From Defluviitaleaceae bacterium (GTDB lineage: Bacteria; Bacillota; Clostridia; Lachnospirales; WQUN01): DNA of 45,127 nt. Position 1 is the first letter of the stretch. Every line of letters begins with the position of its first letter. Of this stretch, positions 2,091 through 42,635 are shown piece after piece. The DNA lies in NCBI GenBank assembly GCA_009786685.1, contig WQRQ01000009.1, forward strand, positions 1 to 45,127, in the 5' to 3' direction. The translations under genes were made by a program, and so were the position numbers. The notes under the pieces are model-generated. The model searched no databases. It saw only the letters and a program-made list of their open reading frames with translations, and was not told where the DNA came from.

Positions 2091-2101
2091 ATAATTCCTC
2101 C

Positions 2102-2197
2102 TTTTAAATGGGGGCTACGCCCCCAAGCCCCCTCGCTACACGGGGCAAAGCCCCGTTCCGCTCCGCTCCCGCGTACCGCGCTCTGCGCGGCAGGTGG
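2102..2197 (-). repeat. GC-rich palindromic repeat, copy R1
   Basis: This fills the gap between the GXGXG subunit gene and glmS. It contains the hairpins GGGGGC-TAC-GCCCCC (2110-2124) and CGGGGC-AAA-GCCCCG (2141-2155). Read on the minus strand it ends GGGGGCGTAGCCCCCATTTA directly before the glmS ribosome-binding site. Copies R2 (17717-17812) and R3 (42637-42684) share this 3' part and the same orientation relative to the following gene. Confidence 0.8.
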
Positions 2198-2200
2198 ATT

Positions 2201-4143: not shown

Positions 4144-4568
4144 ACCGCCGCCTCCTTTTCCGAAAAGATAATCGCGCCGTTTGGACAGCCGTTTACACAT
4201 GCGGGAGAATTTTCGCATAGCTCGCATTTTTGCACTGCTCCGCTTTCGGACGGGGATACCGCGCCGTATGGGCAGGATAGAATGCAGGTGTAACAGCTTA
4301 CGCATTTTTCTTTTTCTATTGTGATTACACCGTCTGCAATGGAAATCGCGCCTGTTATGCAGGCTTTTTTGCATAGTGGCTCTTCGCAGTGGCGGCAGTT
4401 TACGGCAAAGGATATGCCGTCTTTTTCTTCTATGTTTATGTTTGGGATTATTTTTCTTCCCTTTAACGCTCGCGCCATGTCTTTTTGGTCTGTTGCGGCA
4501 AAGGCGCAGTAATACTCGCATAGGCGGCAACCTAAGCACCAGTCCTCATTTACGTAAATGCGTTTCAT
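4140..4568 (-). CDS. 4Fe-4S polyferredoxin-type electron-transfer subunit
   Basis: 142 residues with four cysteine clusters: CLGCRLCEYYC (residues 11-21), CRHCEEPLCKKAC, CVSCYTCILSCP and CELCENSPACVNGCP. This is the HycB/NrfC-like layout for four [4Fe-4S] clusters. It probably shuttles electrons between the adjacent flavin oxidoreductase and the glutamate synthase core. The start ATG overlaps the purA stop by ATGA, and its own end overlaps the oxidoreductase start by ATGA. Such ferredoxin genes are typical partners of clostridial split glutamate synthase; here it is separated from the FMN subunit gene by three purine genes. Confidence 0.9.
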   Translation of the reverse strand: MKRIYVNEDWCLGCRLCEYYCAFAATDQKDMARALKGRKIIPNINIEEKDGISFAVNCRHCEEPLCKKACITGAISIADGVITIEKEKCVSCYTCILSCPYGAVSPSESGAVQKCELCENSPACVNGCPNGAIIFSEKEAAV

Positions 4569-18793: not shown

Positions 18794-18830
18794 AAATCCA
18801 ACTGACGATAAATTATCGTCAGTTGGATTT
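18794..18830. terminator. TGACGATAA palindrome, copy P1 (terminator)
   Basis: A 37-nt perfect palindrome with 18-bp arms (AAATCCAACTGACGATAA) around one central base, with T-rich sequence on both sides. It lies 17 nt downstream of the 2-hydroxyacid dehydrogenase gene on the minus strand and ends that operon before the ABC ATPase gene. Similar palindromes are P2 (36077) and P3 (41836). Confidence 0.8.
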
Positions 18831-26721: not shown

Positions 26722-27855
26722 ATGAAAAAGAACCTTCTTAAAGTGCTATGCTTTGCACTAATGTTTACCATGTTGCTGGGTCTGACAGCATGTGGTAACG
26801 ACGACGCGGACGACGGCACCGTAACCGTACGTATTGGCTGGACACCACCCGACGTTACAGGCGTATTTGCTACAGTTACACAGTTTATGGAGGCAGCAAT
26901 TGCTTCTGCCGCTCCATATGGTATCAACATCGAAATAGTAGAACGTCCACCCACAGACCACGCCGGTGTAGCCGAGCAAATTGCAGTTATTGAAAACTTC
27001 ATACTGCAAGAGGTAGACGCTATCATGGTTTCGCCTACGGACGTAGACGGTGTTACACCTGTACTGCGCGAGGTAAACCAAGCCGGTATACCACTGCTTA
27101 TGGTTAACATGATGTCGGAAATAGCCGGCGTTAACGTAACCAGCTTTGTAGGCTTTGATAACCGCATAGCCGCAGAAGTAACAGGCTGGTCTGCGATAAA
27201 CGCATTAGGCGGTCCGGGTCCGTTGCCGCAGGCAGCAGGCGGTGCCATGAGCGTACCCGCGAGCGAACATCTTAACGTACACTGGTGGCGTGACCTTTAC
27301 TCCGGTTTCGACAAAAACTCTATCAGCGGTAATGTTGCCATAATCGAAGGTATTCACGGCGACTATTTCTCTAATGCTCGTAACGCCGGATTCTTGGATG
27401 TTATAAACCAGTTCCCTAACATTAACGTATTAACAATTCTGCCCGGCGACTGGAACAGAGCGCGCTCCGTAGAGCAAGCAGAAAATATTCTGCATATGTT
27501 TGGCCCCGGTGAAATCGACGCTATCTTTGCACCCAGCTCCGAAATGGGTTTTGGCGCACGCATAGCCATAGAAAGTGCCGGCCGCGAAGAAGTTCTTGTG
27601 CTTACACACGGCGGTACAATGGAGTCCGGCGATTGGATACGTGACCAACGCCTACTTGTAGATACATGGCATGGTTTCCCGGACTGGGGTTGGTATGGTG
27701 TAAAATTTGCTGTTATGTCTGCATTTGGACAGGATGTTCCATATATGTTTGACATAGGCTCTCGTACACAATGGTACGGCAATGCCGATATGTTCTTCCC
27801 CAACGTGCAACTCGCGCCTATCCCATGGCAAGAAATTTTGGACAACAGAAGATAG
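26722..27855 (+). CDS. Sugar ABC transporter substrate-binding lipoprotein (RbsB-like)
   Basis: 377 residues. A lipoprotein signal ends in the lipobox LTAC with Cys24. After an acidic linker comes a type I periplasmic-binding fold: VTVRIGWTPPDVTGVF, LQEVDAIMVSPTDVDGVTP, IPLLMVNMM and DAIFAPSSEMGFGARIA. It captures the substrate outside the cell and delivers it to the permease encoded two genes on. ATG with GAGAGGAGA upstream. No family member with a known ligand is recognisable by eye. Confidence 0.9.
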   Translation: MKKNLLKVLCFALMFTMLLGLTACGNDDADDGTVTVRIGWTPPDVTGVFATVTQFMEAAIASAAPYGINIEIVERPPTDHAGVAEQIAVIENFILQEVDAIMVSPTDVDGVTPVLREVNQAGIPLLMVNMMSEIAGVNVTSFVGFDNRIAAEVTGWSAINALGGPGPLPQAAGGAMSVPASEHLNVHWWRDLYSGFDKNSISGNVAIIEGIHGDYFSNARNAGFLDVINQFPNINVLTILPGDWNRARSVEQAENILHMFGPGEIDAIFAPSSEMGFGARIAIESAGREEVLVLTHGGTMESGDWIRDQRLLVDTWHGFPDWGWYGVKFAVMSAFGQDVPYMFDIGSRTQWYGNADMFFPNVQLAPIPWQEILDNRR

Positions 27856-27877
27856 TAATAATTTTAAAAAATTAAAT

Positions 27878-27912
27878 CGTGGGGGCACTTTATAAGGGGG
27901 GAAGCCCCCACG
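27878..27912 (+). other. Strong intergenic hairpin between binding-protein and ATPase genes
   Basis: CGTGGGGGC (27878-27886) pairs perfectly with GCCCCCACG (27904-27912). It follows the abundant lipoprotein gene and precedes the ATPase ribosome-binding site, a place where mRNA-stabilising hairpins set uneven expression in transporter operons. No T-tract follows. Confidence 0.6.
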
Positions 27913-27937
27913 GTTATAATTTTAAAGAGGTGAGGAC

Positions 27938-29431
27938 ATGAGCGAATATATTCTTGAGATGAAGAATATCACCAAGGGCTTTTATGGCACGATAGTTCTG
28001 CGAGACGTTAACTTTGGTGTAAAACCGGGTGAGGTGCATGTTTTACTTGGAGAAAATGGTGCAGGTAAGTCTACGCTTATGAAAATCCTTTCCGGCGTAC
28101 ATAAACCGGATGGCGGCGAAATTGTAATAGAAGGCGAGAGCAGACGCATACGAGAGCCGGTGCATTCATTACGGCTGGGTATAGGCATGGTTTATCAAGA
28201 GCTTTCCCTCGCGCCTAATTTAAGTGTGTTAGAAAATATTTGGCTGGGCAATTTGCCCACAAAGGCAGGCTTTTTTGTAGACTGGAAAAAAGCAAAAGAA
28301 GAAACGGAAAAGGTTTTTTCACAGTTGGGCATTCCTGTAAATGTGCTGCGCAAGGTATCCCATTACGATTTGGGGTTGCAGCAGCTTGTAGAAATTTTCC
28401 GCGTTGTTTCCCAAAAAGCTAAATTAATTATTTTAGACGAGCCCACGAGTACCCTTTCCGAAATAGAGGTTAAAAAGCTGTTTGAAACCATTAATCTGCT
28501 GCGCGACCAAGGTATTTCCTTCATATATATTACTCATAAGCTGGACGAGGTTTTTGAAATAGGCGACAGAGTAACGGTTTTGCGCGATGGCCAGGTAATC
28601 GGTGATACCATGGAAAACGTAAAAGAGCTAACCAAGGACGACTTGATAAAACGTATGGTAGGCAGAACCCTCGACGAGCAATATCCAAAAGAAGTTGCCG
28701 TAACAGAAGAAGTTTTGCTTGAGGTTAAAGACCTCTCCGACGGTGAGTATTTTAACAATGTTTCGTTTAACATAAGAAAAGGCGAGGTGCTGGGTGTAGC
28801 GGGGTTGGTCGGTGCAGGAAACAGTGAGTTGGCGCAGGCTATATTTGGGCTACGCAAAATAAAAAACGGCACTATACGGCTAAACAGCAGCGAATACAAC
28901 ATAAGCAGCCCCGTAGACGCCATATCACGAAACGTAGGGTTATTGACACAGGACCGCAAGGACGGGTTATTGCAACATATGCCAATATACGTAAATGTAA
29001 GCGTGGCGCAAAAGAATGAAATGAGCAAGCTAGGGTTTAGGCTTCGCAAAAAAGAAAAAGCGCAGGCACGTGATTATATAGACAAGCTAAAGGTAGAAAC
29101 AACATCGGAAAACAAACTGGTGCGTAACCTAAGCGGCGGAAATCAACAAAAAATAGCCGTAGCAAAATGGATATGCAACGGCACAACCTTGTTCATAATG
29201 GACGACCCTACCCGTGGTGTAGACGTAGGCGCGAAGGTGGAAATATACAAAATAATAAACGAGCTAACTGCAAAGGGATACGGCGTGTTAATGATATCTT
29301 CCGATATGCCGGAGCTATTAGCCATGTCGGATACCATTATGGTAATGAAAAAGGGGGAAGTTACTGCAATTTTACCGGCAAGCGAGTGTACGCAAGAAAT
29401 AATTTTTGAAAAAGCAGCGGGGAGTGACTAA
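27938..29431 (+). CDS. Sugar ABC transporter ATP-binding protein, two fused domains (RbsA/MglA-like)
   Basis: 497 residues, standard for the CUT2 family. Domain 1 has LLGENGAGKSTLMKILSG (Walker A), LIILDEPTSTLSE (Walker B) and FIYITHKLDEVFEIGDR. Domain 2 begins near residue 265 with GVAGLVGAGNSELAQ, where the P-loop is degenerate as usual in this family, and has NLSGGNQQKIAVAKWI and LFIMDDPTRGVDVGAK. ATG behind AGAGGTGAGG. It powers the ribose-type importer with the single permease next to it. Confidence 0.94.
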   Translation: MSEYILEMKNITKGFYGTIVLRDVNFGVKPGEVHVLLGENGAGKSTLMKILSGVHKPDGGEIVIEGESRRIREPVHSLRLGIGMVYQELSLAPNLSVLENIWLGNLPTKAGFFVDWKKAKEETEKVFSQLGIPVNVLRKVSHYDLGLQQLVEIFRVVSQKAKLIILDEPTSTLSEIEVKKLFETINLLRDQGISFIYITHKLDEVFEIGDRVTVLRDGQVIGDTMENVKELTKDDLIKRMVGRTLDEQYPKEVAVTEEVLLEVKDLSDGEYFNNVSFNIRKGEVLGVAGLVGAGNSELAQAIFGLRKIKNGTIRLNSSEYNISSPVDAISRNVGLLTQDRKDGLLQHMPIYVNVSVAQKNEMSKLGFRLRKKEKAQARDYIDKLKVETTSENKLVRNLSGGNQQKIAVAKWICNGTTLFIMDDPTRGVDVGAKVEIYKIINELTAKGYGVLMISSDMPELLAMSDTIMVMKKGEVTAILPASECTQEIIFEKAAGSD

Positions 29432-29432
29432 A

Positions 29433-30392
29433 ATGAAAGATAAAGCAAATGCAGTATCTGTTGGTGTGTTAATTCAGAGGTTTAGCCCAATATTCATTTT
29501 AATTGTGCTAATAATTTTTATGAGCTTGGCTAACGACAGATTTTTTCAGGTAGCAAACTTTATTAATATTTTTCGACAAATAGCTATACTCGGAGTAGTT
29601 TCCATGGGTATGACGCTGGTAATCTTAACCGGGGGTATAGACCTTTCTGTAGGGCCTATGATGGCAGTTAGTGCCGCTATCATGGGGGTAGCGGCTACCC
29701 AATGGGGTATTGCTCCCGTCCCTGCGGTGGCCTTGGGCTTGGCCGCAGGTACAGTGCTTGGCGTTATTAACGGGATGGTTATTACAAAAGGGCAGATACA
29801 GCCGTTTATAGCCACGCTGGGTATGATGGTGGCGGCGCGGGGGGTTGTGCTTTTGCTTACGGGCGGGCTTGCCGTGCGTGGCATTCCCGAGCCTATGCTT
29901 ACCATAGGCAGCCGTTTTGTAGGCAGGATTCCGCAGAGCGCGTTTGTACTGGTGGCTGTTGCTGTCGTGGCTTGGATATTGCTTAACAAAACAACCTTTG
30001 GGCGTAACATCATGGCAATAGGCGGCAACTCCGAGGCGTCCCGTACATCCGGTATCAGGGTTGACCGTGTTAAAATTATCGTTTATGCAATATGCGGATT
30101 CTTTTGCGCTATTGCCGGCTTCTTGTATATGGGTCGTGTAAACTCGGTGCCTCCTCTTATGGCAAGCGGCATGGAACTGCAAGCCATTACCGCCGTTGCA
30201 CTGGGCGGCACAAGCCTTTCCGGCGGTAACGGCAGCATAATGGGTACAGTAATAGGCGTAATCACCATAGGCGTGCTAAACAACGGACTTAACCTTATGA
30301 ATGTTTCTGCCGCGTGGCAGCAGGTTATACTCGGTATTATGATAACCATTGTTGTAATACTGGATTCTTGGAGAAAGCGCAAATTTGACTAA
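29433..30392 (+). CDS. Sugar ABC transporter permease (RbsC-like)
   Basis: 319 residues with about 8-10 hydrophobic segments, for example FIFIVLIIF-like helix at the start (PIFILIVLIIFMSLA) and MGMTLVILTGGIDLSVGPMM, the hallmark of CUT2 permeases. NSVPPLMASGMELQAITAVA and LGGTSLSGGNGSIMG carry the ATPase-coupling EAA-like loop. ATG at 29433, one base after the ATPase stop, with GGGGAG 8 nt upstream. It probably forms a homodimeric channel. Confidence 0.92.
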   Translation: MKDKANAVSVGVLIQRFSPIFILIVLIIFMSLANDRFFQVANFINIFRQIAILGVVSMGMTLVILTGGIDLSVGPMMAVSAAIMGVAATQWGIAPVPAVALGLAAGTVLGVINGMVITKGQIQPFIATLGMMVAARGVVLLLTGGLAVRGIPEPMLTIGSRFVGRIPQSAFVLVAVAVVAWILLNKTTFGRNIMAIGGNSEASRTSGIRVDRVKIIVYAICGFFCAIAGFLYMGRVNSVPPLMASGMELQAITAVALGGTSLSGGNGSIMGTVIGVITIGVLNNGLNLMNVSAAWQQVILGIMITIVVILDSWRKRKFD

Positions 30393-30408
30393 ATGCCGGG
30401 AGGTTACT

Positions 30409-31173
30409 ATGGACAATAATTTACGGCTCAATAATAAAGTAGCGGTCATAACAGGTGGAGCGTCGGGCATTGGCAAAGAAATTGCGATGTTATTTTCTGC
30501 CCATGGTGCAAAAGTCGCGCTTGTTGACTTGGACGAAAGTAAGCTAAACGAAGTAAAAAATGCCATTGGCAAAAATGCCGAAATATTTTGTACGGACATC
30601 ACCGACGAGGACAGCGTAAAAAGCACGGTTAATAAAATAGAAGCCACCTTTGGTAAGCTGGATATTTTAATAAACTGTGCAGGAATATACGCCGCCGGTA
30701 AAATTACAGAAACCAACTACGCAGACTGGAATAAGATTTTAAACGTAAACCTTAACGGTGCGTTCTTATGTAGCAAATATGCTATAGAAGCCATGTTAAA
30801 AAACAAAAAAGGCGCGGTTGTAAATGTGGCGTCTGAGGCAGGGCTGGCTGCCATAGCAGGGCAGGTGGCATACAATGTGTCTAAGGCGGCGATGGTATCG
30901 CTTTCCAATTGTATGGCGGTGGATTATGCCACATTTGGTATACGCGTAAACTGCGTTTGCCCCGGGCGAATCTTAACCCCGCTGGTGCAGCACATTATCG
31001 ATAGCTCCGATAATCCCGAAGAAACCTTTAACGTCCTAAGCCATGACCGCCCGCTTATGCGAATGGGTACAACCGGTGATATCGCGTATGCCTGTTTACA
31101 TTTTTCGGACGACAGTATGCCGTATGCTACAGGCAGTGTAATGTCTGTAGATGGTGGATACACGGCGCGTTAA
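30409..31173 (+). CDS. Short-chain dehydrogenase/reductase
   Basis: 254 residues, classical SDR. The cofactor motif is ITGGASGIGKEIA, NNAG appears as INCAGIY, the catalytic Ser lies in VNVASEAGL and Tyr-Lys in AYNVSKAAM. C-terminal YATGSVMSVDGGYTA is typical. It starts at the ATG at 30409 behind GGGAGG; a longer frame overlapping the permease is rejected. As the last gene of the plus operon it adds another NAD(P)-dependent step. It ends overlapping the convergent hypothetical gene by 4 nt. Confidence 0.93.
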   Translation: MDNNLRLNNKVAVITGGASGIGKEIAMLFSAHGAKVALVDLDESKLNEVKNAIGKNAEIFCTDITDEDSVKSTVNKIEATFGKLDILINCAGIYAAGKITETNYADWNKILNVNLNGAFLCSKYAIEAMLKNKKGAVVNVASEAGLAAIAGQVAYNVSKAAMVSLSNCMAVDYATFGIRVNCVCPGRILTPLVQHIIDSSDNPEETFNVLSHDRPLMRMGTTGDIAYACLHFSDDSMPYATGSVMSVDGGYTAR

Positions 31174-31745: not shown

Positions 31746-33063
31746 TGGCCGCCCTCACTTTCTCTGCGCGGTTTACATAAAGAAGCCAAAACCCCGCCGC
31801 AACAAATCTTAACACAAAAAACACCGCAAATGCATAAATCAATGCCTGTCGGTCGCCGCCAAGCCCACGATAAAGAGCGACGCCCACCACAGGCATAACC
31901 GCATTGCTAAGCGTAATAAGCATGGTATAAACAGAAATCGAAAAACTGCGGTACTCCTCGTCCACGACTTTTAGCAGGCATTGGAAAAGATTAAGCGTGA
32001 TATTGGCAAAAGCCATCTGCCCTGCCGCGTGTATAAGCAAAAACACGGCAATTCCAATGCCGCCATGGGGAATACTCACCCCAACGATAATCGCAAGCGG
32101 GCTAAACGCCAGCCCAACCATACCATAGGTAAGAGGCCGCTCCACGCCTTGCTTTACGTTGTTTCTGCTCCAGCGTTTAAGCGTCAAAAGCTGCGTAATC
32201 ATCGCGCCTACGGGGGTGAGGCTAAGCAGCACCTCGTTCATGCCCAAGTAATTTCGCTGGCCGATAAAAAACAAGGTCCAGTCTGCGTGCCATGTCATAT
32301 GAAAAAACAAAATTGTGATACAAAAATAAATATACAGCTTATTTTTGGAAAGCCGCCTTGCCGCCGTTTTTATTTCCGCAAAAGAAATCCGTTTTGGCTC
32401 CGAAGGCTTAACCGCCTTTATCTTCCTAAAGTGAATCGCATTTGAAATAAGCATAACCGCTGCGATTACATAAAAAACCTGGTGCGCCGCGATTTTGCCT
32501 TCGTCGCTTACAATCGCCGTAAGAATCGCACCTACGCTAAGCGGCACAACCAGCGACACAATCATAGTCATGCGTGCGCGGAAGGTGAGTACATTGTTAC
32601 GGTTTTCGCGTACGCCTTCTATCCACGCTCCTTCCGGTATAACCTCGGGGAAATATGATTGCCATGAGAGATTGTACATTCCCACAGAAACGGTGGCGAG
32701 AGACAAAAATCCGATAAAAAAATAAACCATATGTACAGGCAAAAAAGCGGCACTGCCCGCCGTAGCGTAAAACACACCCGCCATTACCAAGGCAACTGTA
32801 AGCATACGACGTTTATTGCTTAGGCTGTCGGCAAACAAGCCCATGGGTATGAGTAACAAAAGGCTTAACATCTGCGGCATAAATTGTAGCATACTAAGCT
32901 GGAAGTCGTTAGCCCCCAGGCGTTGTGCAAATAAATTATTATTATTTGCCGCCATGGAGACCGCGCCCAGCGTTAGTATGCCGTCAATGCCGTATTTTAC
33001 CGTAATCGGCTGTGTCTGTATAAAACTGCGGGCATTACGTACCGCTATACTAAAGCGTCTCAA
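31732..33063 (-). CDS. MFS transporter
   Basis: 443 residues with about 12 hydrophobic helices in two halves separated by a basic loop (RKIKAVKPSEPKRISFAEIK, near residue 215). The MFS loop 2-3 motif is present as GLFADSLSNKRRMLTV. The substrate is unknown. TTG at 33063 overlaps the prs stop by 14 nt and has only a weak ribosome-binding site, so coupling to prs translation is likely and the exact start is uncertain. Confidence 0.82.
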   Translation of the reverse strand: MRRFSIAVRNARSFIQTQPITVKYGIDGILTLGAVSMAANNNNLFAQRLGANDFQLSMLQFMPQMLSLLLLIPMGLFADSLSNKRRMLTVALVMAGVFYATAGSAAFLPVHMVYFFIGFLSLATVSVGMYNLSWQSYFPEVIPEGAWIEGVRENRNNVLTFRARMTMIVSLVVPLSVGAILTAIVSDEGKIAAHQVFYVIAAVMLISNAIHFRKIKAVKPSEPKRISFAEIKTAARRLSKNKLYIYFCITILFFHMTWHADWTLFFIGQRNYLGMNEVLLSLTPVGAMITQLLTLKRWSRNNVKQGVERPLTYGMVGLAFSPLAIIVGVSIPHGGIGIAVFLLIHAAGQMAFANITLNLFQCLLKVVDEEYRSFSISVYTMLITLSNAVMPVVGVALYRGLGGDRQALIYAFAVFFVLRFVAAGFWLLYVNRAEKVRAANAEQ

Positions 33064-34069
33064 AGCTAACCGTGCCGTCCGTACTCATAACATCAAAAAG
33101 CTCACCGATGGACTCGTTGTTATGAATACAATTAATCGCATTGGCAAGGTACTCCGCTACGGAAAGCACCGTTACTTTATCAATTCTTTTTTCCGGGGGA
33201 AGCTCGATGGTATCTAGTACAACAAGCTCGCTAATAGGGGAATTTGCCAAGTTTTTAACTGCGTTTCCGCAGAATTTGGGGTGCGTAATACAGGCGAAAA
33301 CATCTTTCGCGCCGTTATCCATTACTATTTTTGCGGCGTTGCAGATTGAACCGCCCGTAGATAGCTCGTCGTCTAAGAGAATGGCGTTTTTACCTTTTAC
33401 GTCACCGATAAAGTGGTCGATTTTGCTTTTTTTATCATCGAGCCTACGCTTGTCAACGATGGCAAGGGGTACGCCTAGTTTTTCTGCAAAATATTTACAC
33501 CGTGCCACGCTTCCAAAATCCGGCGATACGATTACAACGTTTGACAGATTATCGCCTATGCCTTTTTTAATGCGGTAGTATTGCAAAAAGAGATAAATGC
33601 CGCGCAGGTGGTCCAGCGGGATATTAAAGAAGCCCTGTATCTGAGGGCAGTGCAAATCCATGGAGAGTATCCTGTCCGCACCCGCAGAGGTAATCATATC
33701 CGCTACAAGCTTTGCGGTAATCGGGTCGTGAGAACGCGCTCGCCTATCCTGCCGCGCATAGCCAAAATATGGCACAACCACAGTAATGCGCCCCGCCGAA
33801 GAACGCCGCATGGCGTCAATCATAATAAGAAGCTCCATCAAATGGTCATTAACCGGGAAGCAGGTAGACTGGATAATAAAAATGTCGTTACCGCGTACCG
33901 TTTCGTTAATGATTACCTTTGTTTCGCCATCGGGGAAGAAGCCCGTTTCTGCATTGCCAAGCTCTAGGTTTAGTTGCTCGGCTACGCTTTTTGCGAGCAA
34001 TTTGTTCGCGCTTCCCGCAAAAATTTTCATTTCGCCGATACTTTTTACTGTTCCTGTTCGTTTCGTCAT
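33050..34069 (-). CDS. prs: Ribose-phosphate pyrophosphokinase (PRPP synthetase)
   Basis: 339 residues. It makes PRPP from ribose-5-P and ATP for purines, pyrimidines, His and Trp. FFPDGETKVIINETVRGNDI, VVPYFGYARQDRRARSHDP and LSMDLHCPQIQGFF are canonical. The PRPP loop reads LLDDELSTGGSI, where classical enzymes have Asp-Thr-Gly-Gly-Thr, so an Asp is replaced by Ser. ATG with GAGGAG formed by the last codons of recA, 6 nt downstream of its stop. It may be a second or variant Prs of the lineage. Confidence 0.93.
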   Translation of the reverse strand: MTKRTGTVKSIGEMKIFAGSANKLLAKSVAEQLNLELGNAETGFFPDGETKVIINETVRGNDIFIIQSTCFPVNDHLMELLIMIDAMRRSSAGRITVVVPYFGYARQDRRARSHDPITAKLVADMITSAGADRILSMDLHCPQIQGFFNIPLDHLRGIYLFLQYYRIKKGIGDNLSNVVIVSPDFGSVARCKYFAEKLGVPLAIVDKRRLDDKKSKIDHFIGDVKGKNAILLDDELSTGGSICNAAKIVMDNGAKDVFACITHPKFCGNAVKNLANSPISELVVLDTIELPPEKRIDKVTVLSVAEYLANAINCIHNNESIGELFDVMSTDGTVSFETL

Positions 34070-34075
34070 ACTGTA

Positions 34076-35248
34076 TTACTCCTCATCCATGTCCATTATT
34101 TCAATTTCTAAGGATTCGTCGTTGTCGTCCGCGGCTGCTGTCGCTAATGCTTTTTTATCCACTTTTATGAAATTGTCTTCTGATTTTAATGATTCCAGTG
34201 GCTTCATGCCAAAATGCTCTCTTGCTTTGTCTTCGATTTCCTTGCGGATTTCTGCGTGGTCGCGTAGGTATAGCTTTGCGTTTTCGCGGCCTTGGCCGAG
34301 GCGTGTTTCGCCGTAGGAAAACCACGAGCCGCTTTTTTGCGCAAGCCCGATTTCCAAGCCCAAGTCCAACAAATCCGCTTCCTTGGAAATACCTTCGCCG
34401 TACATTATATCAACTTCTGCCGTGCGAAACGGCGGTGCGACTTTGTTTTTTGTAATTTTGATTTTTGTGCGATTGCCCACCTGATTGTCGGAGACTTTGA
34501 TTGCCTCGCCACGGCGGATATCTATGCGCACGGAAGAATAGAATTTTAACGCCCGCCCGCCTGTGGTGGTCTCGGGACTGCCGTAGGTTACGCCTATTTT
34601 GTCGCGGAGCTGATTGATAAAGATGATTATGCAGTTTGTTTTGTGGGTGATACCCGTGAGCTTGCGTAATGCTTGCGACATAAGCCGCGCTTGTACACCC
34701 ACGGTGGATTGTCCCATTTCGCCCTCGATTTCCGCACGCGGCACTAACGCCGCCACGGAGTCCACAACTACTACATCTATAGCCGCCGAGCGTACCATTG
34801 CCTCGGCAATTTCCAAGGCCTGCTCGCCGTCGTCGGGCTGGGAGATATACAGCTCGTCTATATTTACGCCAAGCTTACGCGCATATACCGGGTCCATGGC
34901 ATGTTCTGCGTCTACATAGCCTGCGATACCGCCAAGCTTTTGGCATTCCGCCACTATATGCAGCGCGAGTGTGGTTTTACCCGAGCTTTCCGGCCCGTAG
35001 ATTTCTACGATACGCCCCTTTGGTACTCCGCCAACGCCAAGAGCGGCGTCTATGCTTATTATCCCCGTAGTTACCACAGGAATACTCATATCGCCCATCT
35101 TCTCGCCCATCTTCATTACTGCACCCTTGCCGAATTGCTTTTCAATATTAGCCAGGGCGTTATGTAACGCCTCCTCTTTTGCCGCCTGGTCTTCGAATAC
35201 TATGACTTCTTTGTTCTTTTTAGATTCCGAAGCTTTTTTCTTGGCCAT
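34076..35248 (-). CDS. recA: RecA recombinase
   Basis: 390 residues. It forms filaments on single-stranded DNA for recombination and SOS induction. Walker A is [16 protein letters not shown] (residues 82-97), and [16 protein letters not shown] is Walker [21 protein letters not shown] covers the DNA-binding L2 region and [16 protein letters not shown] follows. The C-terminal tail is acidic ([10 protein letters not shown]), as usual. ATG at 35248 with AGGAG 9 nt upstream; a longer reading frame upstream is not conserved. It heads an operon with prs, the MFS gene and a hypothetical gene. Confidence 0.98.
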
Positions 35249-35403
35249 CTTCTTTTGCTCCTCGTACTTTTTTCTATATTGTAATACAAATAAAATATAA
35301 GGCAAGCATAAACTTAGTTTTTTGTAAAAATATGTATGCGACCTATAACCCGATACTTTGGCCGCGAAAAATTTTTGGGCAACCTGCAAAGGTAAAGCAC
35401 CAT

Positions 35404-35428
35404 TAAAGTTTGATGACATTAAACTTTA
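35404..35428. promoter_or_regulatory. Imperfect palindrome upstream of recA, candidate operator
   Basis: TAAAGTTT (35404-35411) and AAACTTTA (35421-35428) form an inverted repeat; the 25-bp site is nearly symmetrical throughout. It lies about 156 bp upstream of recA. It does not match the GAAC-N4-GTTC LexA box of Firmicutes, and no such box was found in the 274-bp gap. Its role is unknown. Confidence 0.4.
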
Positions 35429-35522: not shown

Positions 35523-36011
35523 TTATTTTATTTCTATTATATTTGTTAGATTAACGCGGTCTATGGCGATTTGTAATGCGGCTATTGTTTCGTTTAGCCA
35601 TTCCAGCTTAGCTTTGCATTCGGTCTTATCGTAGTTTATTACCGTGTATTCTACCGCACCGCCGTAGGTTGAGCGTGTGGTTTTTGCTTCTTTGTTTGCC
35701 AATGTACTTACTATGGCTAACTCGCGGTTTAGCTGCGCCAAATAAACAAGGCACTCGCCCAATGTCATAGAAAACTCCGGTACGACAGTCGTTGCATTGG
35801 AAAGATTTAAAAGGCTTTTAAGCTTACGGATTTCTGCGTCCAATTTACTTATTTTTTCGCGGGTATCGGCAAAGGAATACCCGTTATCAAATCGGTCCTT
35901 CTCGTTTTGATACGTGATTTCGTGAATGCGTGTTTCTTCCACAAGGGTGTCAAATTTGCTTTGCTCCAGCAGCTTAATTTTTTTCATAATTTCCGTATTG
36001 CACATCTTCAT
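35523..36011 (-). CDS. Hypothetical coiled-coil protein
   Basis: 162 residues, mostly helical, with heptad-like runs in residues 1-65 (IMKKIKLLEQSKFDTLVEE, REKISKLDAEIRKLKSLLNL) and near the C terminus (LEWLNETIAALQIAIDRVNL). The layout faintly resembles the DIP1984/DUF6847 family, which also ends with a short helix and a Thr/Asn segment, but this is weak. ATG at 36011 with AAAGGAGG 8 nt upstream. It has its own leader and is separated from recA by 274 bp, so it is probably a single-gene unit. Confidence 0.7.
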   Translation of the reverse strand: MKMCNTEIMKKIKLLEQSKFDTLVEETRIHEITYQNEKDRFDNGYSFADTREKISKLDAEIRKLKSLLNLSNATTVVPEFSMTLGECLVYLAQLNRELAIVSTLANKEAKTTRSTYGGAVEYTVINYDKTECKAKLEWLNETIAALQIAIDRVNLTNIIEIK

Positions 36012-36076: not shown

Positions 36077-36107
36077 TTCAACTGACGATATTTTACGGTC
36101 AGTTGAA
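36077..36107. repeat. TGACGATAA palindrome, copy P2
   Basis: TTCAACTGAC (36077-36086) pairs perfectly with GTCAGTTGAA (36098-36107). Unlike P1 and P3 it lies between two divergent genes, upstream of both, so it cannot be an ordinary 3' terminator. Confidence 0.75.
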
Positions 36108-36120
36108 AAGTAAAAAAAAT

Positions 36121-36149
36121 TTGACGTAATTGTAATTTTTGTGTAAAGT
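36121..36149 (+). promoter_or_regulatory. Promoter of the DUF3798 transporter operon
   Basis: TTGACG (36121-36126), 17-bp spacer and TAAAGT (36144-36149), 14 bp after palindrome P2. The leader to the ATG is about 80 nt. Confidence 0.6.
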
Positions 36150-36236: not shown

Positions 36237-37517
36237 ATGAAAAAGGCATTAGGAATCATTGCTACACTGTGCATGTTATTGTTTGTTGTAACAGCATGTG
36301 GTACAGACGCTCCTCCCCCTGCACCTGTGGACGGCGGAACTACTGTAGCAGATACAGCTACAACCCCACCGGCAGACACAGGCGCGGCCACCACACCCGC
36401 CGAAACAACCCCCGCTGTTGATGACGACGAACTCTTCCCCGGCATCATCGCGATTGTAACAAACACGGTAGACCAAAACGAAGAAGAATTCCGCAGTGCG
36501 GAAGCTCTGGTAAACAGGTTTGGCTCCGACAGAGTTATCCACAGAACATGGCCTGTTTACTTTGCAACAGAGCCGGAGATGATGATAACGATTCTTGTAG
36601 AGGTTGCATCAAACCTTGACGTAGGCGCGATTATTATTAACCAAGCCGTAGCAAACACAAATGCGGCAATCGATGCAGTGCGCGAAATCCGCGGCGACGA
36701 CATCTTCATAGTAGTAGCGTCTGCGGCAGAAGACCCACGCGACGTATATGCAAGAGTAGACCTTTCTCTTGACATTAACAACCCGGATATCGGCGCGTTA
36801 TTTGTACAACAAGCAGTGGAAATGGGCGCGGAAGCTATCGCTCACTACTCCTTCCCGCGTCACATGGCTATCCCAATGCTTGCGGCACGCCGCGACAACA
36901 TGCGCGAAGCCGCCGAAGCCGCAGGCCTCCGTTTCTACGACCTTCCGTCACCCGACCCCATGGAAGAAGGCGGTATGGCCGCCAGCCAATTGTTTATTTC
37001 ACAAGACGTAGGCAGACAAGTAGAAGCTTTGGGCAGAAACACCGCATTCTTCTCCACAAACTGCGGACAACAAATTCCGCTTTTGCAACAAGTTCTTGCA
37101 TATGGCGCGATGTATGTACAGCCTTGCTGTCCTTCGCCCTTCCACGCGTTCCCGCAGGCTTTAGGCCTTGCCGCTACGCAGGAAGAAGCCGTACAAGGCT
37201 TTAGCATTGGAGAAATCATAGAGGCAACCAGCACTGCGATTGCAGAAGCAGGTATGACAGGAAGACTGGCAAACTGGGCATTGCCGGGCAGCATGGCTTA
37301 CACAACAGTGGGCTTTATGTATGCCGTAGAATGGCTTAACGGCCGCGTTACACAAGAAGTAGGCCAAGTTGATACAGCAGTGCTTATGAGATTGTTTGGC
37401 GATTACGCAGAAGAAGTGATGGGCGAGCGTTTGTACCCCATACTGACACCGCTGCAAATCGGCGCAGACACATTCTCTACAATGTATGTAATCTTAATGC
37501 CGTACATTGTATACTAA
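36237..37517 (+). CDS. DUF3798 lipoprotein, ABC importer binding component
   Basis: 426 residues. A lipoprotein signal ends VVTACG with Cys21, followed by a Thr/Pro/Ala-rich linker (about residues 23-62). The rest is a type I binding-protein-like fold: LFPGIIAIVTNTVDQNEEEF, LVNRFGSDRVIHRTWP, GAIIINQAVANTNAAIDAV and AHYSFPRHMAIPMLAARRDN, the pattern of DUF3798. Two cysteine sites occur in STNCGQQIPLL and VQPCCPSPFHAFPQ. It is first in an operon with one ATPase and two permease genes, so it should deliver ligand to them. The ligand is unknown. Confidence 0.85.
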   Translation: MKKALGIIATLCMLLFVVTACGTDAPPPAPVDGGTTVADTATTPPADTGAATTPAETTPAVDDDELFPGIIAIVTNTVDQNEEEFRSAEALVNRFGSDRVIHRTWPVYFATEPEMMITILVEVASNLDVGAIIINQAVANTNAAIDAVREIRGDDIFIVVASAAEDPRDVYARVDLSLDINNPDIGALFVQQAVEMGAEAIAHYSFPRHMAIPMLAARRDNMREAAEAAGLRFYDLPSPDPMEEGGMAASQLFISQDVGRQVEALGRNTAFFSTNCGQQIPLLQQVLAYGAMYVQPCCPSPFHAFPQALGLAATQEEAVQGFSIGEIIEATSTAIAEAGMTGRLANWALPGSMAYTTVGFMYAVEWLNGRVTQEVGQVDTAVLMRLFGDYAEEVMGERLYPILTPLQIGADTFSTMYVILMPYIVY

Positions 37518-37534
37518 ATAATAACGTATAATAG

Positions 37535-37562
37535 CCGCGGAACGGGTAAAACCGTTCCGCGG
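37535..37562 (+). other. Strong hairpin after the DUF3798 gene
   Basis: CCGCGGAACGG (37535-37545) pairs perfectly over 11 bp with CCGTTCCGCGG (37552-37562) around a GTAAAA loop. No T-tract follows, so it is more likely an mRNA 3'-end protector or partial attenuator than a full terminator. Confidence 0.65.
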
Positions 37563-37588
37563 TATATTACAGCGAAATCAATGAAGAA

Positions 37589-37650
37589 CGGTCTCGTCCG
37601 AGGCGAAAATCGCGAACGCTTCACCGCGTTTTCGACGACGGGCGAGACCG
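37589..37650 (+). other. Second, longer nested hairpin before the ATPase gene
   Basis: CGGTCTCGTCCG (37589-37600) pairs with CGGGCGAGACCG (37639-37650) with one G-U. Inside, CGAAAATCGCG pairs with CGCGTTTTCG with a bulge. It lies just upstream of the ATPase ribosome-binding site (37675-37679). Confidence 0.6.
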
Positions 37651-37685
37651 ATTCTGAATTATTTCGATGTATGCGGAGGCGGAGC

Positions 37686-39278
37686 ATGAGCCGTAATTTA
37701 TTGGAATTTAAAGGTGTATCAAAAAATTATTCGGGCAATCAGGTGTTAAACGACGTAAGCTTTGACATCCGACCGGGAGAAATCCACGCGCTTATCGGCG
37801 AAAACGGTGCGGGAAAATCCACCCTTATGAATATTCTTTTTGGAATGCCCGTCATACATACGACAGGTGGCTACGAAGGCGAAATGGAGCTGAACGGCGA
37901 AAAAATGGAAGTAACATCTCCATTTGACGCCATGGCTTTGGGTATAGGCATGGTTCACCAGGAATTTATGCTAATCCCCGGCTTTACCATTGCAGAAAAC
38001 ATAAAGCTAAACAGGGAAATAGAAAAAGACAATACGGTAAATAAAATAACCTCGACCCTATTCGGCAAGCGTATGAAAACGCTGGATTTTAAGCAAATGA
38101 ACAAAGACGCAAGAATCGCGCTGGACAAGCTGGACATGAGTATAGAAGAATTCACACTGGTAAAAGGGCTGCCAATCGGCTACATGCAGTTTGTAGAAAT
38201 CGCCCGAGAGATAGACAAAACAGGGCTAAAGCTGCTTGTACTTGATGAACCGACAGCGGTGCTTACAGAGTCGGAAGCGGAAAGCCTGCTTAAAGCCATG
38301 CGCAGTATTTCCAAAAGAGGCATTGCCATTATATTCATAAGCCACCGCTTAAATGAAATCATTGCGGCAGCCGACAGAGTAACGATTTTGCGTGACGGCG
38401 AGCTTGTAATAACCAAAGACGTAAAAGACACAAACACCTTGGAAATAGCAGAATACATGGTAGGCAGAAAAGTAAGTATAGAAAGAACAAGCCAACAAAG
38501 GGAGCTAAGCGACGAAATAAAGCTCACCGTAAAAGGTCTGCGAGTAGCCATGCCAAACGAGCGCGTAAAGGGCGTAAGCTTTGAAGTGCGCAAGGGAGAA
38601 ATATTCGGCATAGGCGGGCTTGCGGGGCAGGGCAAGCTTGGCATAGCAAACGGCATAATGGGAATGTACGAGGCAAAGGGCGAAGTCACCATGGGCGACG
38701 TAGCCCTACCGCTAAACGACACAAGAAAAATGCTGGATTCCGGCTTATCCTTTGTAAGCGAGGACAGAAAAGAAGTAGGTCTTCTGGTCGAAAAAGCCAT
38801 TGACTACAACATCATGTTTACGGCAATGAATATCAAATCCGAGTTTTTAAACGCATTTAAAATGACTGACAAGAAAAAAATCCGTAAACATGCACGCAAA
38901 ATGATAGAAATGCTCGACATCCGTTGCACATCGGAAAAGCAGCATACGGGCAGACTAAGCGGCGGCAACCAGCAAAAGGTATGCGTCGCAAGGGCGTTAA
39001 CACAAAAGCCGACCATTTTATTTGTATCCGAGCCAACACGCGGCATAGATATAGGCGCGAAAAAATTAATTCTCGACCTCTTGTTAGAACTCAGCCGTGA
39101 CCAAGGCATGACAATAATAATGACATCTTCCGAGCTTGCAGAATTATGCAGTATCTGCGACAGAATAGCCATCATCTGCGAAGGCGAAGTAGCTGGCATT
39201 CTGCCGCCGGACGCCTCACCGACAAAGTTTGGCCTGCTGATGTCGGGCATTAAAGATTTGGAGGGGGGACAAGCATGA
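37686..39278 (+). CDS. ABC transporter ATP-binding protein, two fused domains (nucleoside/BMP type)
   Basis: 530 residues. Domain 1 has LIGENGAGKSTLMNILFGMP (Walker A), KLLVLDEPTAVLTESEAE (Walker B) and IIFISHRLNEIIAAADR. Domain 2 has IGGLAGQGKLGIANGIMG in the P-loop position and RLSGGNQQKVCVARALTQ with ILFVSEPTRGIDIGAKK, where Ser replaces the Walker B Asp. An insertion of about 60 residues after the Q-loop (NREIEKDNTVNKITSTLFGK) makes it longer than RbsA. ATG at 37686 with GGAGG 6 nt upstream; an in-frame extension to 37581 would cover a hairpin and is rejected. The next gene overlaps by ATGA. Confidence 0.9.
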   Translation: MSRNLLEFKGVSKNYSGNQVLNDVSFDIRPGEIHALIGENGAGKSTLMNILFGMPVIHTTGGYEGEMELNGEKMEVTSPFDAMALGIGMVHQEFMLIPGFTIAENIKLNREIEKDNTVNKITSTLFGKRMKTLDFKQMNKDARIALDKLDMSIEEFTLVKGLPIGYMQFVEIAREIDKTGLKLLVLDEPTAVLTESEAESLLKAMRSISKRGIAIIFISHRLNEIIAAADRVTILRDGELVITKDVKDTNTLEIAEYMVGRKVSIERTSQQRELSDEIKLTVKGLRVAMPNERVKGVSFEVRKGEIFGIGGLAGQGKLGIANGIMGMYEAKGEVTMGDVALPLNDTRKMLDSGLSFVSEDRKEVGLLVEKAIDYNIMFTAMNIKSEFLNAFKMTDKKKIRKHARKMIEMLDIRCTSEKQHTGRLSGGNQQKVCVARALTQKPTILFVSEPTRGIDIGAKKLILDLLLELSRDQGMTIIMTSSELAELCSICDRIAIICEGEVAGILPPDASPTKFGLLMSGIKDLEGGQA

Positions 39279-40324
39279 GCTTGTTAGACTTGCTCAAGAA
39301 AATTCCGTTTTCTACTAGAGTAGTAGGCGGTTTGTATTTGGCGGTTTTGGTGCTGGGCGTAGTTAACGGGTTTAGCATTGCTACATTGATTTCTGCCAGC
39401 TTGCATTTTTTTGGTGTGTGGGCGATTTTCGCGCTGGCCAATGTTCCTTCTATTCAATCGGGGACGGGGCCTAACTTTGCTTTGCCCATTGGTATCGTAA
39501 ACGGACTGCTTGCCATGGTGCTTGTTTTGGCGGCAGGCTTTACAGGGATAGTGTTTATCATCGTGGCGTCGGTGGCGGCTATAGTTTTCGGCAGTTTGTC
39601 CGGCTATCTCTACGGCAGGTTGATGAATGCCGTAAAGGGCAGCGAAATGGCAATCGCGCCCTATACCGGCTTTGCAATAACCGCTGCGTTTGGCCTTGTG
39701 TGGCTTGCCATCCCGATTAATCATCCCAATATGGTGTTTTTTCTCGGTGACGGCCTGCGGCATCAGATTCCGCTGGATTACTTCGGCGCGAATTTAATTT
39801 TGGCAAACTTTCTTTATTTCGAATTATTTGGGATGCAGGTGCGTACGGGCGAGTTATTGGTTGTTTTTGTGGCTTGCTTGCTTATGTATTTGTTCTTCCG
39901 CACAAAGGCGGGGATAGCTATTTCCGCCGTCGGCAGAAATCCCTTATTCGCGAAGGCTACGGGCATAAATGTAGACCGCAGCAGGGTGATTGCAAATATG
40001 ATGTCCACCGCAATCGCCGCGTTTGGCGTAGTTGTTTATGCGCAGGGCTTTGGGTTTATTCAGCTTTATGACTTCCCTATGTTTATGGCTTTTCCTGCTA
40101 TAGCGGGTATTGTGGTCGGCGGCGCGAGTAAGCAACGGGCAAATGTTACAAATGTTGTCGTGGGTACGTTTTTGTTCCAGGGGCTGATTGCTATTGTTTT
40201 GCCCGTGTTTAGCCGCGCACTCGCGGGGACGGACGTTGCCGGCGTCGTTAACCAAATTAGAATGGTAGTACAAAACGGAATCATCCTTTACGCGCTTGCG
40301 CAAATGAGCAAGGGAGGCAAATAA
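39275..40324 (+). CDS. ABC transporter permease 1 of the DUF3798 importer
   Basis: 349 residues with about 8-9 hydrophobic helices (VVGGLYLAVLVLGVVNGF, AMVLVLAAGFTGIVFIIVA, AAIVFGSLSGYLYGRLMNAV). GIAISAVGRNPLFAKATGINVDRSRV is the ATPase-contact loop of BPD_transp_2 permeases, the RbsC/NupP branch, and PAIAGIVVGGASKQRANV follows. Overlaps of 4 nt upstream and 1 nt downstream show tight coupling. It pairs with permease 2 as a heterodimer, the arrangement of NupP-NupQ. Confidence 0.87.
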   Translation: MSLLDLLKKIPFSTRVVGGLYLAVLVLGVVNGFSIATLISASLHFFGVWAIFALANVPSIQSGTGPNFALPIGIVNGLLAMVLVLAAGFTGIVFIIVASVAAIVFGSLSGYLYGRLMNAVKGSEMAIAPYTGFAITAAFGLVWLAIPINHPNMVFFLGDGLRHQIPLDYFGANLILANFLYFELFGMQVRTGELLVVFVACLLMYLFFRTKAGIAISAVGRNPLFAKATGINVDRSRVIANMMSTAIAAFGVVVYAQGFGFIQLYDFPMFMAFPAIAGIVVGGASKQRANVTNVVVGTFLFQGLIAIVLPVFSRALAGTDVAGVVNQIRMVVQNGIILYALAQMSKGGK

Positions 40325-41829
40325 TGACTACTAATGGTATAAGCGGTGAAAAAATCCGCGCCTTTCTTTTTGATAATATCGTAACGATTATTTTCTTGGG
40401 CTTTGTGGTTTTTGGTTTTCTTGTTTCCGATACCTTTACGCCGAGTTCTTTTACCAATGATATTATTTCGCGCTTTTTCCGTAACGGGGTTTTGGTGCTT
40501 TCGCTTATTATTCCTATTATGGCGGGGCTTGGGCTTAACTTTGGTATCGTGGTGGGCGCGCTTGCGGGGCTGCTTTCTATTGTGTTTGTGCGGTATCATT
40601 ATGCCTTGTTCCCCGGGATTGGCGGGCTTTTGCTTTGCTTTGCCATTGCTACACCCATTGCGATTCTTTTTGGATTTTTGACGGGAAAGCTTTATAACAA
40701 AACTCGCGGACAGGAAATGGTCGCAAGCCTTATTGTTGGCTTTTTTGCGGGCGGTTTATATGAAATATTTTTGCTGTTTGGCGTGGGTGGGATTATCCCT
40801 GTGCGCTGGGGACATAGGATGATAAACCCCGTAGCGGAAGGCGTGCGCCCGGTGGGTATTCGCAGCTCCTTCGAAATGGGCTTGCCTGCGGCGGAAATGA
40901 CAGGCCGTGGCTTTGCAAATGAAGTTCCCGGTATGGCCAGGGCGTTAAATAATCTTTGGCGCGTGGAATTTGTTTATGCACTCGCGGCAGTTTCTATTGC
41001 CGTATTTGCCTTCCTTGTAATACGACGCATTTATATGAAGAAAAATGCCGCCGCTTTTTCCGCATTAAACGAGCCGCTATGGGCTTTTTGCGTAAAAATT
41101 GCCTTATGCGGCGCGGTAGTGCTTTTTGCGATTTTCAGCTCCGGGCAAATTTATTACTGGTACCATGTACTGTACAACGACCCGTATATTACAAGGCTCG
41201 ACCTGTTGCCCGGGATTTCCAATTTTGCCGTGGAAATCAGCCGCATAGACCGTGTTCCTGTTGTCACGGGGCTTGTGATTGCTGCTGTTGGTTTGTTTAT
41301 CGTTTATTTTTCCAAGACAAAGCTTGGGCAGGATTGCCGCAGTGTAGGACAGAGCCAGCAAATTGCTAATGTGTCGGGCATTAATGTTGACCGTACGCGG
41401 ATAATTTCTACTATTATTTCTACTGTGCTTGCGGCTTGGGGTATGATTATCTTTTTGCAAGATATGGGACATGTAAGCACCTATACCGTGCATAGAAACA
41501 TTGGCTTTTTCTCCGTAGCGGCGATTTTGGTGGGTGGCGCAACTGCCGCCAGAGCAAGTGTGAAAAATGCCATGGTAGGGCTTTTGCTTTTCCATGCTAT
41601 GTTTATTGTTTCGCCCGCCGTAGGATTGTTTGTGTTTAACGACGGAAACGCAGGCGAATACATGCGCACATTTATGGTTTACGGCGTTATCGGTGTCTCG
41701 CTTGGGCTGTATGTTTGGAAGGCCAATAAAGCCGCTAGGGATAAAGAACGATTAAGAGATAACGATGACAAGCTGATGGCAAATTTACCGATGGTAGGTT
41801 TGAATGAAGCCTCAGGGATGGATGATTAA
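40324..41829 (+). CDS. ABC transporter permease 2 of the DUF3798 importer
   Basis: 501 residues, long for this family, with about 10 hydrophobic helices. IIPIMAGLGLNFGIVVGALA corresponds to the conserved Gly-rich helix of BPD_transp_2 permeases; KLGQDCRSVGQSQQIANVSG and INVDRTRIISTIISTVLAA form the coupling loop, parallel to permease 1. A central segment of about 100 residues between helices (RMINPVAEGVRPVGIRSSF to ARALNNLWR) is predicted extracytoplasmic. Its start is fused to the end of permease 1 as TAATG. It is last in the operon, followed by palindrome P3 and a terminator. Confidence 0.85.
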   Translation: MTTNGISGEKIRAFLFDNIVTIIFLGFVVFGFLVSDTFTPSSFTNDIISRFFRNGVLVLSLIIPIMAGLGLNFGIVVGALAGLLSIVFVRYHYALFPGIGGLLLCFAIATPIAILFGFLTGKLYNKTRGQEMVASLIVGFFAGGLYEIFLLFGVGGIIPVRWGHRMINPVAEGVRPVGIRSSFEMGLPAAEMTGRGFANEVPGMARALNNLWRVEFVYALAAVSIAVFAFLVIRRIYMKKNAAAFSALNEPLWAFCVKIALCGAVVLFAIFSSGQIYYWYHVLYNDPYITRLDLLPGISNFAVEISRIDRVPVVTGLVIAAVGLFIVYFSKTKLGQDCRSVGQSQQIANVSGINVDRTRIISTIISTVLAAWGMIIFLQDMGHVSTYTVHRNIGFFSVAAILVGGATAARASVKNAMVGLLLFHAMFIVSPAVGLFVFNDGNAGEYMRTFMVYGVIGVSLGLYVWKANKAARDKERLRDNDDKLMANLPMVGLNEASGMDD

Positions 41830-41835
41830 ATAAAG

Positions 41836-41862
41836 CAACTAACGATAAATTATCGTCAGTTG
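41836..41862 (+). terminator. TGACGATAA palindrome, copy P3
   Basis: CAACTAACGATAA (41836-41848) pairs with TTATCGTCAGTTG (41850-41862), one mismatch, 7 nt after the permease 2 stop. AT-rich sequence follows. Confidence 0.7.
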
Positions 41863-41880: not shown

Positions 41881-41908
41881 AAACCCTCGCCACGGACGGG
41901 GGTTTTTG
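41881..41908 (+). terminator. Intrinsic terminator of the DUF3798 operon
   Basis: AAACCCTCG pairs with CGGGGGTTT around CCACGGA, followed by TTTTTGTT. It backs up palindrome P3. Confidence 0.75.
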
Positions 41909-42038: not shown

Positions 42039-42635
42039 ATGCCTGCATTTTTTACGTACCTACAGAATATAACGTACTATCTGGTGTTTGCCACGGTTAT
42101 CGGGATTTTCGCGCCGTCGGGTAAATATAAGAAATTTGTTTCGCTGGTTTTGGGGTTTGTGCTTCTGCTGTTGATGATACAGCCGCTTGCGGGGTTTTTT
42201 AACGGGCGGGATGTTCCTGTCACTCAGTGGTTTGCGGGGTTTTCCGGGGACGGCGGAATTGCTCGGGCGGGAGTGGATTCTGCCTATGCCGACTGGTGGG
42301 ATGGGCATTTGCGTGTGGCTTTTGAGGCGCAGCTGGATGCGCAGATTTCCAGGCTTTTGGAAGGGGAGGGGTTTGAGGTTTATTCTACCGCCTTCACGTA
42401 TACGGACGACTTTGGCGAGTTGAATTCCATCAGGGTTAGCGTAAGCCGAAGAGAAAAAACCGACGACGACACGGGGCGTATCCCCTTCATCAGAATACAG
42501 ACACCGCAGGTTAGGATTATCCAAATCGGTGAGCCTGCTTCCGATAAAAACTGCCCCGATTCCGCTTTGATAAAAAATTTAATTTCGGACTTCTACAACC
42601 TGCCCACTTCACATATATATGTAACTGTACAGTAG
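42039..42635 (+). CDS. spoIIIAF: Stage III sporulation protein AF
   Basis: 198 residues. Two N-terminal membrane helices (YYLVFATVIGIFAP, about residues 12-25, and FVSLVLGFVLLLLMIQPLAG, about 32-51) are followed by an extracellular domain with the pattern FEAQLDAQISRLLEGEGFEV and NSIRVSVSRRE. This is the SpoIIIAF layout. The protein belongs to the mother-cell side of the SpoIIIA-SpoIIQ channel that joins mother cell and forespore. It begins a three-gene unit whose usual upstream neighbours spoIIIAA-AE are missing here. Confidence 0.88.
   Translation: MPAFFTYLQNITYYLVFATVIGIFAPSGKYKKFVSLVLGFVLLLLMIQPLAGFFNGRDVPVTQWFAGFSGDGGIARAGVDSAYADWWDGHLRVAFEAQLDAQISRLLEGEGFEVYSTAFTYTDDFGELNSIRVSVSRREKTDDDTGRIPFIRIQTPQVRIIQIGEPASDKNCPDSALIKNLISDFYNLPTSHIYVTVQ

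Follow-up and report, generated by a model that had tools for sequence, protein, structure and literature searches.

Here we have shown that a 45,127-nucleotide stretch of DNA from a Defluviitaleaceae bacterium (positions 1-45,127 of contig WQRQ01000009.1, assembly GCA_009786685.1, referred to as the window) carries at positions 36237-41829 a bounded operon of four tightly packed plus-strand genes, which encode a DUF3798 solute-binding lipoprotein, a double-domain ATP-binding cassette (ABC) ATPase and two different permeases (P1 and P2), and that DUF3798 importers form a well-supported lineage apart from the BMP-type (nucleoside/riboflavin) and the CUT2 sugar importers. The operon, the protein families, the linkage of the genes as a cassette, their separate phylogeny and the fold of the binding protein were all computed here. 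It is nearly certain that the four genes encode a complete ABC importer; import itself is inferred. The lipoprotein, anchored outside the membrane, would bind a small solute within its class-I cleft and pass it to a heterodimer of P1 and P2, and the double-domain ATPase would power this permease. From the gene neighborhoods of relatives we guess, with less than even confidence, at an imino or amino acid for anaerobic fermentation as the cargo.

An earlier sequence-only reading of this DNA had described the same four genes, with DUF3798 instead of BMP as the binding component, and both points hold. The lipoprotein consists of a single DUF3798 domain (PF12683; 263 bits against a gathering cut-off of 24.6, E 3.9e-78), and in Pfam searches up to an E value of 0.1 it matched only this family, with neither Bmp (PF02608) nor a Peripla_BP or other sugar solute-binding protein (SBP) domain. 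Profile comparison with hhalign aligned 111 columns of DUF3798 with BMP, signal peptide included, at 8% identity, and a comparison with a sugar SBP profile aligned 223 columns at 13% identity. Judging from its signal peptide and the cysteine of a VTA-C lipobox read from the sequence (residues 18-21), the protein is a predicted bacterial lipoprotein. The next two gene junctions are overlaps, of 4 bases between the ATPase and P1 genes and of 1 base between the P1 and P2 genes. The operon fits the general pattern of CUT2-like double-ATPase importers, as its ATPase fuses two ABC_tran domains and its permeases are of the BPD_transp_2 family (Pfam). Because relatives of the ATPase have about 530 residues, and not the 565 of the full open reading frame (ORF), its translation probably starts at Met36 (37686).

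The phylogenies place these subunits outside the known importer groups. In the ATPase tree, a quick tree that was drawn with midpoint rooting and has several long branches, 33 DUF3798-linked ATPases form one clade (Shimodaira-Hasegawa-like approximate likelihood ratio test support, SH-aLRT, 100), next to groups of seven sugar-type (99) and of BMP-type ATPases (54). In the permease tree, DUF3798 P1 (99) and P2 (98) are sister clades with a joint support of 100, the two BMP permeases are each other's sisters (95), and the sugar permeases form a third group (98). Provided that the tree is not rooted within the DUF3798 clade, the DUF3798 and BMP systems thus acquired their two-permease design separately.

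The BMP-type importers, such as NupNOPQ of Bacillus subtilis and PnrABCDE and RfuABCD of Treponema pallidum, also combine a lipoprotein SBP of class-I fold with a double ATPase and two permeases in the same order, but they differ in SBP family, in ATPase and permease clades, and in having their own permease duplication. Assignment of the operon to the BMP-type nucleoside importers is therefore not supported: the layout agrees, but the Bmp match and the clustering of the ATPase and permeases with BMP subunits are absent. The likeness to NupNOPQ that the sequence-only reading had pointed out is thus one of design, not of descent. Moreover, the layout is not diagnostic of nucleoside importers, since ytfQRT-yjfF of Escherichia coli has an identical gene order. 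The latter belongs, as YtfQRT-YjfF (galactofuranose), to the CUT2 two-permease importers, as does LsrACDB (autoinducer-2, AI-2), and these share the double ATPase and BPD_transp_2 permeases with the operon studied here. Assignment to the CUT2 sugar importers is likewise not supported, because the ATPase and permeases fall outside the sugar clades and the SBP has no Peripla_BP match.

The earlier reading had also suggested a purine or cofactor derivative as a possible ligand. We regard an importer of purines, nucleosides or cofactors as improbable, despite the BMP-like gene order, the adenine deaminase and xanthine/uracil permease (Xan_ur_permease) genes that adjoin DUF3798 operons at one locus each (L131 and L041, respectively; L-numbers denote loci around DUF3798 genes and G-numbers sampled genomes), and the flavin mononucleotide (FMN) riboswitch and RibU-like gene that stand directly upstream of the operon in a single genus, represented by three genomes (riboswitch in L019, 207-353; L023, 3567-3713; L029, 270-416). 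These supports are scattered and weaker than the hydroxyproline and amino-acid context described below. The binding protein is not BMP, no subunit falls within the BMP clades, and the two permeases stem from a duplication other than that of the BMP pair. In addition, a RibU-like gene lies between the FMN riboswitch and the operon in L075, a wider view of L019, and the riboswitch may serve RibU alone. Rfam scans of 46 loci detected, besides tRNAs, only the FMN riboswitches and one c-di-GMP-I riboswitch; neither a purine nor a cobalamin riboswitch reached the gathering threshold near any of the loci scanned. As a clue to the ligand the riboswitch was rejected, since it is limited to one genus and stands beside RibU.

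Among 398 genomes sampled from the phylum, 68 contain DUF3798, whereas all 14 control genomes lack it. The family also occurs in Spirochaetes and Fusobacteria, human pathogens being among the carriers. The ATPase gene lies directly 3' of DUF3798 in all 30 of the strongest matches in the phylum. When wider loci were considered, it followed 56 of 68 testable DUF3798 genes, that is, those away from contig edges, and the complete four-gene set was present in 51 of these 68. The DUF3798-ATPase-P1-P2 arrangement is therefore far beyond chance, which bears out the co-occurrence that the sequence-only reading had proposed to look for and goes against its alternative that DUF3798 genes are usually found without transporter genes. 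The window has the four genes in this order, and every subunit falls within the DUF3798 clades. Since the SBP, ATPase and both permease trees contain the same clades (for instance L052/L056/L067/L145, and L061/L071 with the termite set), the cassette is inherited as a unit. The nearest public relatives of the window system are found in clostridial metagenome-assembled genomes (MAGs) of Defluviitaleaceae and Oscillospiraceae from termite guts and in Treponema MAGs, the termite source being deduced from isolate names; outside this termite set, L061 and L071 are its closest relatives in the trees.

Orphan DUF3798 genes without transporter genes were also observed (L058, in tandem; L060, L095, L099, L100, L101, L132, L136 and L148). 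They are mostly divergent members from genomes in which a complete or nearly complete cassette is present at another locus (G209, G415, G443 and G520); besides these, a T. pallidum-like genome has two orphans and Fusobacterium vincentii has one. Orphans are possibly extra binding proteins that use one common transporter. Upstream of the orphan in L101, in a bacterial genome, there is a match to a eukaryotic-type RNA-dependent RNA polymerase (1684-5121; PF05183, E 7e-28), and in L108 (110-2620) a DUF3798-like segment is fused with RCC1-like repeats in one protein.

The AlphaFold model of the lipoprotein (mean predicted local distance difference test score, pLDDT, 79.7) has the predicted fold of a class-I periplasmic binding protein with two Rossmann-like lobes. 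By far its nearest solved structure is 3qi7 (VIA; Z 39.7, root mean square deviation 2.5, 345 residues), a Clostridioides difficile 630 protein of the same sequence family (phmmer E 3e-22) and fold. This protein was deposited as a putative transcriptional regulator, and we found no ligand or function for it; unlike the window protein, with which it shares 20% identity, it is without the HYSFPRHM, TNC and CCPSP cleft motifs. PnrA was not among the best 50 VIA structure matches listed, which excludes nothing, and PnrA of Streptococcus pneumoniae ranked 45 and 50 among the Foldseek matches. Far behind 3qi7 follow LsrB, the nearest fold from outside the family (Z 19.2, 285 residues, root mean square deviation 3.8), and sugar-binding proteins. 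These matches could point to an importer of a sugar, a sugar derivative or an AI-2-like molecule, as could the best NCBIfam match of the ATPase, which is XylG-like but far under its cut-off, and two glycosidase genes in the window's subclade: a GH43 gene overlapping the operon end in L003 (12405-13463) and an alpha-L-arabinofuranosidase gene preceding the operon in L096 (7555-9024). We nevertheless consider such a cargo unlikely, because a fold similarity of Z 16-19 is common to all class-I binding proteins, glycosidases occur at few loci, and neither the SBP family nor the ATPase and permease clades are those of sugar systems. The two glycosidase neighbors, only two cases, would also fit arabinosylated plant hydroxyproline.

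Over 43 family members, the conserved positions of DUF3798 include T75-T77, P106, HYSFPRHM (203-210), D240-P241, TNC (274-276), CCPSP (297-301) and W347. Class-I binding proteins hold their ligand just after the ends of beta-strands. In the model, these motifs cluster just past the strand ends, where conserved positions are enriched (of 63 such positions, 20 fall within the 60 sites of this kind among 332, P 0.002); the control sites before the strands, 56 in number, contain 11. The CC of CCPSP, which we considered as a metal or haem site, is kept in most members and missing from 3qi7 and a Treponema clade (one aligned Treponema sequence). PF12683 is already listed among 45 solute-binding-protein profiles (Ortega, Matilla and Krell 2022, PMC9602780), and in the parts of that article available to us neither a ligand for the family nor a description of its transporter lineage was found. 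Thus, the binding role of DUF3798 is not new, whereas its ligand would be; the literature naming the family yielded none, in line with the expectation of the sequence-only reading of a poorly characterized importer family with a distinct ligand, which can now be narrowed to a few candidates.

The unusual length of P2 and its central insert, noted earlier as about 100 residues, were also recovered: the protein has 501 residues, compared with 347-390 in short and 413-501 in long relatives. The approximately 95 extra residues (about 214-308) lie within one loop, contain two hydrophobic stretches and are absent from the short relatives. Since a group of long relatives shares it, the insert is a trait of a DUF3798 clade, probably a lineage-specific hairpin, and not a quirk of this gene. 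Its topology is based on alignment and hydrophobicity, as the structure model of P2 (pLDDT 41) is unusable.

With respect to the cargo, in the window's subclade it would most likely be proline, trans-4-hydroxyproline or a small proline- or hydroxyproline-containing peptide, whereas some other subclades could carry ornithine or further amino acids. In L004, which has an SBP 69% identical to the window's, the gene for HypD (trans-4-hydroxy-L-proline dehydratase) lies 213 bp directly upstream of the DUF3798 operon on the same strand. L066 contains, in line, HypE (the radical-SAM activase), HypD, an M24 peptidase gene, the four-gene cassette and an M20 peptidase gene. The identity of HypD is clear from matches to PDB 6vxc of 1236 (L004) and 1125 bits (L066), as against 577 and 555 for the next enzyme. 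L061 has HypD and HypE in divergent orientation to the operon, with an M24 gene downstream of the latter; in its sister L071, an M24 gene, whose product is closest to Xaa-Pro dipeptidase-type enzymes, starts 7 bp past P2. G176 has a damaged DUF3798 gene, with HypD at a distance of about 10 kb from it. Of the 35 sampled genomes containing both families, 3 (G176, G184 and G350) have HypD no more than about 12 kb away from DUF3798, where by our own estimate about 0.3 would be expected (Poisson P ~0.004). The window protein and the HypD-linked members have HYSFPRHM, TNC, CCPSP, H303, R343 and W347 in common, while two aligned HGD-linked members deviate at R208, S300 and H303. Across genomes, DUF3798 co-occurs with HypD (35 against 11.4 expected; odds ratio, OR, 9.9) and with OraE (27 against 10.9; OR 5.2).

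Ornithine-fermentation genes form a second context. In L093, Alr and the DUF3798 operon directly follow a cluster of OrtA, OrtB, OraE, Or-4 and Orr (NCBIfam), ornithine-fermentation genes are found upstream within 5 kb in L051, and among the Treponema loci a 2,4-diaminopentanoate dehydrogenase gene is located three genes upstream in L142 and within the L143 region. Together with the OraE co-occurrence, this could indicate an importer of ornithine or another basic or Stickland amino acid instead of proline or hydroxyproline. We consider this rather unlikely for the window, whose genome has no OraE match and whose nearest relatives carry HypD and M24 rather than ornithine genes; in L051, moreover, LysR and SIR2 genes intervene. 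C. difficile uses proline as well as hydroxyproline and ornithine as Stickland substrates (PMC9815643), so that the HypD and ornithine neighbors converge on amino-acid fermentation.

It should be noted that several observations weigh against an imino or amino acid as cargo. No HypD, OraE or Gly_reductase match was found in the window's genome, which is 94% complete, the last of these searches matching no control either; the lack of HypD limits our confidence to the level given above. Most of the co-occurrence arises between GTDB families, the odds ratio within them being only about 2.4 (Mantel-Haenszel, by hand), and the raw counts ignore descent, so that a large part of the association may stem from lineages that ferment amino acids. 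HypD or ornithine genes are adjacent in a minority of loci only, M24 and M20 genes are common and their adjacency alone is weak, and the operon's own neighbors (RecA-like, ribose-phosphate pyrophosphokinase-like and spore_III_AF) are uninformative. Pfam counts over all near neighbors of DUF3798 loci revealed no single dominant family, and some neighbors (HGD-D/double-cubane reductase, corrinoid proteins, RibU with the FMN riboswitch, glycosidases) point elsewhere.

Ligands may in fact differ by DUF3798 subclade. In L052 (8000-9112; NF040772, above cut-off) and L145 (922-2061), one from a Firmicute and one from a Spirochaete, the gene for a double-cubane-cluster-type reductase (HGD-D) overlaps the DUF3798 start, which suggests that the two are functionally coupled in this subclade. 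Taken further, the window's cargo could be unrelated to the neighbors of its relatives, for instance a corrinoid-linked or reductive-metabolism substrate; the apparent translational coupling in L052 and L145, the URO-D and corrinoid protein neighbors in L056 and L067, the methylmalonyl-CoA mutase gene adjoining the orphan in L100 and the loss of the pocket CC would agree with this. This possibility appears decidedly unlikely to us, because the L052/L056/L067/L145 subclade is deeply separate from that of the window, whose cleft motifs are those of the HypD-linked members.

In its widest and more doubtful form, our proposal of an imino or amino acid cargo would make DUF3798 the binding component of a third double-ATPase importer lineage, with which gut Clostridia take up hydroxyproline, proline or small peptides of them to feed fermentation that depends on HypD; hydroxyproline released from plant cell-wall glycoproteins could be part of the cargo in termite guts. 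Hydroxyproline use matters in gut ecology: the fitness of C. difficile in mice depends in part on HypD (PMC9815643). No named hydroxyproline uptake system was found in the literature searched. A family carried also by human pathogens and having no assigned ligand is now linked to hydroxyproline fermentation through those members that are closest to the window's, and its recognition as the solute-binding part of a separate lineage of importers provides a short list of candidate ligands for a simple binding screen.

Table 1. Features of the DUF3798 operon and its surroundings in the window
Feature	Position	Strand	Remarks
DUF3798 solute-binding lipoprotein	36237-37517	+	426 residues; PF12683; lipobox Cys21; class-I periplasmic-binding-protein fold (predicted)
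Double-domain ABC ATPase	37686-39278 (ORF opens 37581)	+	two ABC_tran domains; DUF3798-linked ATPase clade; start probable
Permease 1	39275-40324	+	349 residues; BPD_transp_2; DUF_P1 clade, SH-aLRT 99
Permease 2	40324-41829	+	501 residues; BPD_transp_2 with central insert; DUF_P2 clade, SH-aLRT 98
Permease 2 insert	40963-41247	+	about 95 codons, residues ~214-308; from alignment with short and long relatives
Promoter-like site TTGACG-17-TAAAGT	36121-36149	+	5' of operon; consensus match only, not evidence of function
Terminator-like hairpin	41881-41905	+	closes operon; consensus match only
Ribose-phosphate pyrophosphokinase-like ORF	33050-34069		identity by eye from translation
RecA-like ORF	34076-35419		identity by eye from translation
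spore_III_AF	42039-42635		Pfam match

Elsewhere in the window, a second importer, of the sugar type (Peripla_BP_4, double ATPase and one permease), is located with a short-chain dehydrogenase gene at 26722-31173 and is preceded by genes for a DeoR regulator and two dehydrogenases. A small divergent gene on the minus strand (35523-36011) shows similarity to DIP1984/DUF6847 below threshold only. Finally, a 27-base near-palindrome, CAACTGACGATAATTTATCGTCAGTTG, occurs at about 28 distinct places in G000, whereas a reversed-pattern control gave none. Its copies in the window are at 18799-18825, 36079-36105 and 41836-41862, the last two exactly flanking the DUF3798 operon, and it looks like an intergenic REP-like element.

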